Shown here: positions 24,145-25,258 of the stretch, in pieces
Position numbering within the stretch: the first letter of the stretch is position 1
Layout: every line of letters begins with the position of its first letter
Assembly (NCBI GenBank): GCA_037447655.1
Contig: JBBHKE010003193.1
Coordinates: 113,360-177,359, forward strand
Source of the DNA: Zygnema cylindricum
Lineage: Eukaryota; Streptophyta; Zygnematophyceae; Zygnematales; Zygnemataceae
Reading direction: 5' to 3'
DNA length: 64,000 bases
Notes under the pieces: generated by a model
Told to the model about the DNA's origin: nothing
The model's database searches: none
What the model saw: the letters and a program-made list of their open reading frames with translations, nothing else
Program-made: the position numbers and the translations under genes

Positions 24145-24526
24145 TGTTAAGATTCCTAGAATCGGGGGATTGAATGGACGATCCTAATAAAGGGAATGAT
24201 GAATCGGCCAAGATTTGAACCTGGGAATTTTCACTTTAGCTGTGAATGTACTAACCACTGAACCACCAGCGGATCCAATTTTATATAGTTTTTACTGTGG
24301 ATATTACCACAATTCCGGGTATCGATCGGCACGTTTCACGTACGTCAACACCCCCCCTCGAGAGGTAGCCGGTCACAATTGTCCATGTAAACATGATCCC
24401 CCTGGCTTTGATACCATTTTAAGATTCCTAGAATCGGGGGATAGAATGGACGATCCCAATAAAGGTTTTAATGTGGATATTACCACAATTCCGTGTATCT
24501 TTCGGAACGTTTCACGTGCGTCAACA
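24145..24526 (-). mobile_element. TRIM copy 2, complete, reverse orientation
   Basis: In element orientation: 5' LTR 24526-24417 (110 bp, internally deleted), primer site TGGTATCAAAGCCA just inside 24416, an internal region of 66 bp in all (24351-24416), purine tract CTCGAGGGGGGG next to 24351, and 3' LTR 24350-24145 (206 bp, TGTTGACG to CTTAACA). Flanks GGATT (24140-24144) and GGATC (24527-24531) form a 5-bp target duplication with one mismatch. No coding capacity. Confidence 0.85.
24200..24272 (-). other. tRNA-like sequence in the LTR of TRIM copy 2
   Basis: 73 nt corresponding to the tRNA-like part of the other copies. The A box TGGTTCAGTGG and B box GGTTCAAATCT are still visible on the minus strand, but the acceptor stem is decayed. 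The partner LTR of this copy has lost the whole tRNA-like part. Confidence 0.6.
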
Positions 24527-24879
24527 GGATCCGAATCAAAAGAGGTTCCAATAACAAAATAGAAACGTAAGGTTAACAATAAATGGGACGATAGATGGCA
24601 TCAATGATCCACACTATATCATATAAACATGACGTCAGCTTGCATAGTCAATAAATAGTCACGGAGTCACTCAGCGATGGTGTAGTGAGCCCTAGTGGAA
24701 GTGAGAATAGACGGACTATGCTTCTAACTCCAACACAGTTCTAATGAAAAGCCCATTAATCCTATATTTGATAAAATCGTTTAATTTATAATTTATTGTC
24801 TAGCGCTTAACCACTAACTCGTTGACATCTCTACATGCAATATGGCTAATCTGGCCAACTCTGTGCTGTATGACGTGTC

Positions 24880-25258
24880 GCCGGTCCAAAAGTTGGTCAA
24901 ATCCTGGCCGGCTCATCAATTCCTTTATTGGGATAGTCCATTCTATCCCCCGATTCTAGGAATCTTAACATGGTATCAAAGCCAGGGGGACGAGGTTTAC
25001 ATGGACAATTATGACCGGCTACCTCTCGAGGGGGGGTGTTGACGTACAAAAGTTTACCGCTCGATACCCAAAATTGTGGTAATATCCACACTAAAACCTA
25101 TGTAAAATTGGACCCACCAGCGTAACATCTGAGCTGGTGGCACAGTGGTTAGTACATTCAAAGCTAAAGTGAAAGGTCCCAGGTTCAAATCCTCGCCAGC
25201 TCATCAATCCCTTTACTACGATCGTCCATTCTATCCCACGATTCTAAGAATCTTAACA
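24880..25258 (+). mobile_element. TRIM copy 3, 5' LTR truncated
   Basis: The 3' LTR is 25037-25258 (222 bp, TGTTGACG to CTTAACA). The internal region 24971-25036 (66 bp) has primer site TGGTATCAAAGCC and purine tract CTCGAGGGGGGG, nearly identical to copy 2. The 5' LTR ends at 24970 but only its last ~90 bp are recognisable. Its right end abuts the dispersed module at 25259. Confidence 0.85.
25131..25203 (+). other. tRNA-like sequence in the LTR of TRIM copy 3
   Basis: 73 nt. The acceptor arms GAGCTGG (25131-25137) and CCAGCTC (25196-25202) pair perfectly in 7 bp. A box TGGCACAGTGG and B box GGTTCAAATCC are present. The T stem has one mismatch (CCAGG against CCTCG) and the D stem is weakened. 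No TTTT follows directly. Confidence 0.7.

Follow-up and report, generated by a model that had tools for sequence, protein, structure and literature searches.

Three short LTR elements of one family

The stretch of DNA that was analysed (the window, 64 kb) contains three elements of one TRIM family, referred to here as A, B, and C (Table 1). Repeat search, BLAST, and profile search all found these copies, which have the architecture that the original prediction had assigned to them: an LTR, a TGGTATC primer site, an internal part of 57 to 67 nt, the purine tract GAGGGGGGG, and a second LTR, in the same order in all three. The best profile match in the window beyond the three copies and their LTRs had an E-value of 0.17 and lay inside A, on the opposite strand. 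The previously proposed extent of B was recovered, while A starts at 9841 rather than 9839 and C at 24897 rather than 24880. Likewise, the internal parts of A (57 nt) and C (66 nt) have lengths within the predicted 57 to 66 bp, and that of B has 67 nt. The internal part starts with TGGTATC (one base in for B) and ends with GAGGGGGGG. We take TGGTATC to be the primer site for initiator tRNA-Met; since the motif occurs 14 times in the window, it counts as a primer site only by its place. All 3' LTRs begin with TGTTG and finish with TAACA.

Table 1. Coordinates of the TRIM copies, their parts, and the resident LTR elements in the window
Feature	Position	Strand	Description	Basis
Copy A	9841-10239	+	Whole element
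A 5' LTR remnant	9841-9952	+	Begins in D loop of tRNA-like segment, keeps 59 of 72 nt	108/112 identical to 10128-10239
A internal part	9953-10009	+	Primer site TGGTATCGGAGCC at 9953, purine tract GAGGGGGGG at 10001-10009	Sequence reading
A 3' LTR	10010-10239	+	Complete, 230 nt, TGTTG...TAACA
A tRNA-like segment, 3' LTR	10115-10186	+	A and B box, cloverleaf fold, loop triplet CTG	Rfam RF00005 (56.0 bits), ARAGORN, minimum-energy fold
A TTTT, possible Pol III stop	10188-10191	+	Right after tRNA-like segment; repeated at 9901-9904 in 5' LTR remnant
Copy B	24145-24526	-	Whole element
B 5' LTR	24418-24526	-	109 nt; tRNA-like segment absent, 96-bp gap versus B 3' LTR
B internal part	24351-24417	-	Primer site TGGTATCAAAGCC from 24416 downwards, purine tract 24359-24351
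B 3' LTR	24145-24350	-	206 nt, tRNA-like segment at 24270-24200
B tRNA-like segment	24200-24270	-	71 nt, first two bases gone, decayed	Rfam RF00005 (24.7 bits; gathering score 29)
B target-site duplication, probable	24140-24144 and 24527-24531		GGATT and GGATC	4/5 match
Copy C	24897-25258	+	Whole element
C 5' LTR remnant	24897-24970	+	Begins in B box, keeps 19 of 73 nt of tRNA-like segment	65/74 identical to 25185-25258
C internal part	24971-25036	+	Primer site TGGTATCAAAGCC at 24971, purine tract 25028-25036
C 3' LTR	25037-25258	+	Complete, 222 nt
C tRNA-like segment, 3' LTR	25131-25203	+	73 nt	Rfam RF00005 (38.8 bits), ARAGORN
Ty3 chromovirus	3527-11256		LTRs 3527-3995 and 10783-11256, 91% alike; TGGTATC at 3997
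Copia element	53402-57181		LTRs 98% alike; TGGTATC at 53983

The copies now measure 362 to 399 nt, well below 1000 bp, and each has an LTR pair. No Pfam domain was found at E up to 0.01 in the six frames over A and over 20301-25300, the interval that holds B and C. The traits of a TRIM (short size, LTR pair, primer site plus purine tract, and no protein-coding domain) were all found. The 5' LTR is damaged in each copy, so that none has two complete LTRs, and we infer that an intact element would be about 510 to 520 nt long. The LTRs of a pair differ appreciably, being identical at 108/112 positions in A, 101/109 ungapped columns in B, and 65/74 positions in C, which indicates that the insertions are old. 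The three copies in the window are old and damaged, and present mobility is unlikely for any of them. Copy B is the sole one with both ends, and its flanks probably represent a 5-bp target duplication with one change; as the left ends of A and C are lost, a duplication is readable in B alone. B and C are oppositely oriented, with 370 nt between them, and the repeat search found one arm pair of 134 nt that is 93% complementary; a transcript spanning B and C could form a long hairpin.

A tRNA-like segment within the LTRs

When the 64-kb window was searched with Rfam models at gathering threshold, only tRNA was reported, once in the 3' LTR of A (E = 2.3e-9) and once in that of C (E = 1.2e-4). With such E-values, the tRNA likeness is not due to chance. 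For B, a 1.2-kb search scored the corresponding segment under the cut-off of the model, with an E-value of 0.018. Both A (72 nt) and C (73 nt) have a complete segment in the 3' LTR, with an exact B-box consensus. These two LTRs bear out the prediction that each full LTR holds a 72- to 73-nt segment with A and B boxes; in B the segment has 71 nt and both boxes are altered (the B box by one base), and none of the three 5' LTRs contains it whole.

A cloverleaf was part of the checks suggested for the segment. By minimum-energy folding, the full cloverleaf formed in A and did not form in C or B, and once the 20 nt upstream (the leader) were added, it was the preferred fold of neither A nor C. Folding z-scores were weak (-1.48 for A, -1.98 for C, and +0.58 for B, which folds no better than its shuffles). 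Of the 21 cloverleaf pairs, 16 are present in all copies with sequence at those positions, and each of the remaining 5 is present in two of the three copies. Across the three sequences, 91.8% of the cloverleaf cells were paired versus 26 to 43% in slid versions. Covariation among the three sequences was no better than in shuffles, 345 of 500 shuffles among sequences reaching the same value. ARAGORN, run with the bacterial code, called two of the three segments, A as tRNA-Gln and C as tRNA-Pyl, which are mutually discordant; elements of this kind yield false tRNA gene calls, as these two illustrate. Furthermore, the base 5' of the anticodon triplet is a G in A. This base is usually a U in tRNAs, and the G therefore speaks against a working tRNA. 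An exact-pattern scan of IMG/VR for the module gave 0 matches.

We considered whether the module acts as an RNA, through cleavage by tRNA-processing enzymes, through packaging, or through a fold that affects reverse transcription, and not as a promoter. The cloverleaf of A suits such a role, as do the 5' LTR breakpoints that fall inside the module in two of the three copies and a match to the mascRNA-menRNA model, although this match was sub-threshold (19.5 bits for a cut-off of 42.5, E = 0.23) and any tRNA-like arm might give it. However, B and C do not fold preferentially as a cloverleaf, and chance could readily place two breakpoints within a segment that makes up about one-third of the LTR. 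An RNA-level role in place of a promoter therefore appears quite unlikely to us.

The leader and the 5' arm of the segment also contain an inverted repeat (25114-25140 in C, 10098-10124 in A), with 8 pairs in C, where CCACCAGC pairs with GCTGGTGG, and 7 pairs including one G-U in A; it is lost in B. A transcript that contains the leader would fold as a hairpin through this repeat and not as a cloverleaf.

The segment is the best-kept LTR part between subfamilies

Copies B and C form one subfamily and A another. In the A-C comparison, identity amounts to 64/73 in the segment, 63/107 in the upstream part of the LTR, and 33/59 in the downstream part, for shuffled-sequence means of 0.49, 0.46, and 0.46, respectively. 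The upstream part exceeded its shuffle range and the downstream part (0.559) sat at the top of its own (mean, 0.459; maximum of 200 shuffles, 0.561). Between A and B, the values were 58/73 for the segment, 53/109 upstream, and 34/58 downstream. Between B and C, which share a subfamily, the downstream part was best kept (49/55), followed by the segment (61/73) and the upstream part (68/97). The segment is the best-kept LTR part between the subfamilies but not within one. Identity of the internal part was 45/66 for A and C, 44/67 for A and B, and 62/67 for B and C. In one global alignment of the A and C LTRs, comparison of the segment with the rest yielded a Fisher p of 1e-4, in which columns are non-independent and only two lineages are represented; the ∼20 nt just upstream of the segment were also fairly well kept in this alignment (17/22). 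The conservation of the segment between A and C is consistent with selection on a putative Pol III promoter. With regard to base composition, aligned CpG of the A 3' LTR corresponded to TG, CA, or TA at 8/13 sites in C and 4/14 in B, and in the reverse direction at 1/8 and 1/10; CpG is not short over the window as a whole (1.11).

These comparisons bear on an account without any family-wide design, in which a tRNA-derived SINE or a tRNA gene landed by chance in separate LTR copies after the family had spread. The 5' LTR of B, which is devoid of the module, speaks for this account. However, CCT occurs in the C 3' LTR at both places that border the gap in B, which suits a later deletion in B, and the 5' LTR of B is nearer to the 3' LTR of B than to that of C (88% versus 79% upstream, 96% versus 85% downstream). 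Moreover, A and C carry the module at the same position in LTRs that, apart from it, are different at 70 of 166 columns, and the 5' LTRs of both retain remnants at the equivalent position. Neither a body nor an A/T-rich tail follows the module, and conservation between A and C is no higher downstream than upstream of it. A fortuitous SINE in these copies only, named at the outset as the case that would overturn the idea, is thus very improbable.

Transcription signals

In A, TTTT lies directly 3' of the segment in each LTR; the sense strand of B and C has none. As a sign of Pol III passage, its absence from B and C lacks significance (P = 0.14 and 0.34 in shuffles), and the two runs in A, for a shuffled mean of 0.8, are not strong evidence. 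C and B have a TATA-like string upstream of the segment, at a distance of 32 nt in C and 17 nt in B, where part of the leader is lost; A has no clear TATA box.

Such signals allow for an ordinary TRIM driven by Pol II, in which the module would be a passenger or, placed 3' of a TATA box, a transcribed leader, and Pol III would have no part in movement. The TATA-like strings would suit Pol II, an obvious Pol III stop is missing from B and C, and the TTTT of the A 5' LTR could end Pol III transcription some 80 nt on, cutting any such transcript short. Yet a passenger is not expected to be the best-kept LTR part, as the module is in both the A-C and A-B comparisons, and A lacks a clear TATA box. 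We consider a purely Pol II-driven element unlikely.

Resident Ty3 and Copia elements and other features of the window

The window also carries two LTR elements that may have served as helpers (Table 1). Copy A is inserted in the Ty3 chromovirus and interrupts it. The Copia element appears young given how alike its LTRs are. Both elements have TGGTATC right after the 5' LTR, as the TRIM copies do; BLAST of the TRIMs against the two elements found no longer shared stretch. In the Ty3 chromovirus, a long, acidic-rich open frame without Pfam match (9044-9868) lies between the chromodomain and the 3' LTR. Two long frames of the Copia element match Pol_BBD, GAG-pre-integrase, and retroviral SH3-like domains, with no reverse transcriptase match, and the first of these frames has two weak protein relatives (E up to 1e-10, 27 to 30% identical).

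Among the 120 matches listed for a protein piece of the Ty3 element, 36 had an organism label, and 34 of these were from streptophytes (Tanacetum, 26; Closterium, 6; Nicotiana, 1; Chara, 1); the other labelled matches listed were one rotifer and one bacterial bin, and no fungus. The best local alignments, all with matches outside the labelled set, reached 57% over 550, 58% over 505, and 72% over 313 columns. As a lead, the labelled matches hint at a streptophyte host. Pfam scans of six frames over 11.3-52.3 kb and four frames over 57.2-64 kb revealed no host-diagnostic domain; they returned a weak PAN_2 match in a low-complexity stretch near 42.0 kb (23.5 bits, cut-off 21.1) and weak EB1 and Glyco_transf_61 matches below cut-off. 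A 114-codon open frame at 21452-21793 had no match in a protein search. A direct repeat of 2.46 kb (31509-33963 and 34863-37308) is 92% alike between its units.

Relation to known TRIM families

The anatomy described above fits the original prediction, which saw here a TRIM with a tRNA-derived, Pol III-type module in its LTR, in parallel to Cassandra; the further belief that no family of such design had been described does not stand. TRIMs with tRNA-derived LTR segments have been named Helenus and reported from fungi, animals, and one plant, Selaginella moellendorffii (Kojima 2024, PMC10886601), and Helenus, Cassandra, and Ajax are grouped as TRIMp3 (PMC10886601). The same paper holds that Helenus arose more than once; transcription of Helenus by Pol III has been proposed, and Pol III transcripts of Cassandra are called validated (PMC10886601).

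The copies in the window resemble Helenus in being TRIMs of less than 1000 bp with two LTRs, a primer site, a purine tract, and an LTR sequence that is tRNA-like, has A and B boxes, and is unlike a working tRNA. Sequence of tRNA derivation, the hallmark of Helenus, was found in all three 3' LTRs, in two of them above the Rfam cut-off. Helenus has the module in both LTRs of a copy; of the present 5' LTRs, that of A retains 59 of 72 nt, that of C 19 of 73 nt, and that of B none. In most Helenus, the A box reads TRGCY with YGG and the B box GGTTC (PMC10886601). All three 3' LTRs have GGTTC and YGG; the A box reads TRGC in A and C, with A rather than Y as the fifth base, and B has TGGTT. Plant and fungal Helenus make 5-bp target duplications (PMC10886601), with which the probable 5-bp duplication of B, matching at 4 of 5 positions, would agree. 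The plant family Helenus-1_SMo is described with a 120-bp LTR and an 85-bp internal part (PMC10886601), unlike the 3' LTRs of 206 to 230 nt and internal parts of 57 to 67 nt found here. Because of these differences in described lengths, the copies in the window probably constitute an unlisted Helenus family, set apart from Helenus-1_SMo.

Other systems share part of the design. Cassandra likewise has the promoter of a small RNA gene within a TRIM LTR but carries 5S rRNA sequence, which was not found in the LTRs of the present copies, whose module is tRNA-like. Ajax follows the same TRIMp3 design, with a module derived from 5S, and is reported from two nemerteans (PMC10886601). SINEs derived from tRNA (SINE2) are also short, non-coding retroelements with a tRNA-like Pol III head, but the present copies have LTRs, a primer site, a purine tract, and a short duplication, and no SINE body or tail beside the module. 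Among the matches listed from a partial literature, no further publication on tRNA-bearing TRIMs was recognised, save a meeting report that names Helenus in the portion available (PMC12859917). In the accessible part of the main text of Gao 2016, on plant TRIMs, the word tRNA is absent (PMC4717578), and the available part of an account of viroids and retrozymes contains nothing on a tRNA-in-LTR design (PMC11722881). From excerpts of the respective papers, mosquito LTR elements have tandem tRNA copies at a gypsy primer site and not in a TRIM LTR (PMC3286476), and the tRNA likeness of bivalve TRIMs is in the internal part only (PMC6934838).

A proposed role for the tRNA-derived module

From sequence evidence, we favour as the probable explanation a non-autonomous TRIM family of the Helenus kind, moved in trans, in which the tRNA-derived module of the LTR serves as a putative Pol III promoter. 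That the module would drive Pol III transcription is suggested by the unusual conservation of this part of the LTR and by the precedent of Helenus and Cassandra. The exact B boxes of A and C, the TTTT after the module of A, the matches to the tRNA model, and the structure common to the three copies speak for this explanation; the cloverleaf fold in A only and the B-C conservation, higher downstream than in the segment, speak against it. Active Pol III transcription, and the double use of Pol II and Pol III that the original prediction envisaged, are hypothetical here, as they are for Helenus in the paper that named it (PMC10886601). In the proposed mechanism, Pol III would be recruited to the 5' LTR by the A and B boxes of its module, would start near the 5' end of the module, and would continue as far as the 3' LTR, making the module the R region at both ends of the RNA. 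An autonomous Ty3 or Copia element would supply the machinery that copies this RNA in trans, with initiator tRNA-Met priming the first strand at TGGTATC and the purine tract priming the second, and integration would generate a 5-bp duplication.

A more elaborate version of the Helenus-kind explanation would place the copies in a Helenus lineage of a streptophyte that has none on record. A cassette of ∼95 nt, made up of the 20-nt leader and the segment without a SINE tail, would persist as a separate promoter unit amid turnover of the remaining LTR, and the folded module would stall second-strand transfer, leading to 5'-truncated insertions that break inside it. We regard this combination as distinctly improbable.

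The copies described here apparently add an unlisted family to the recently named TRIMp3; the paper that named Helenus gives one plant species for it (PMC10886601). Within one window they also offer two diverged subfamilies whose tRNA-like part has outlived the remainder of the LTR. The family would gain added interest if its host is a streptophyte other than Selaginella.
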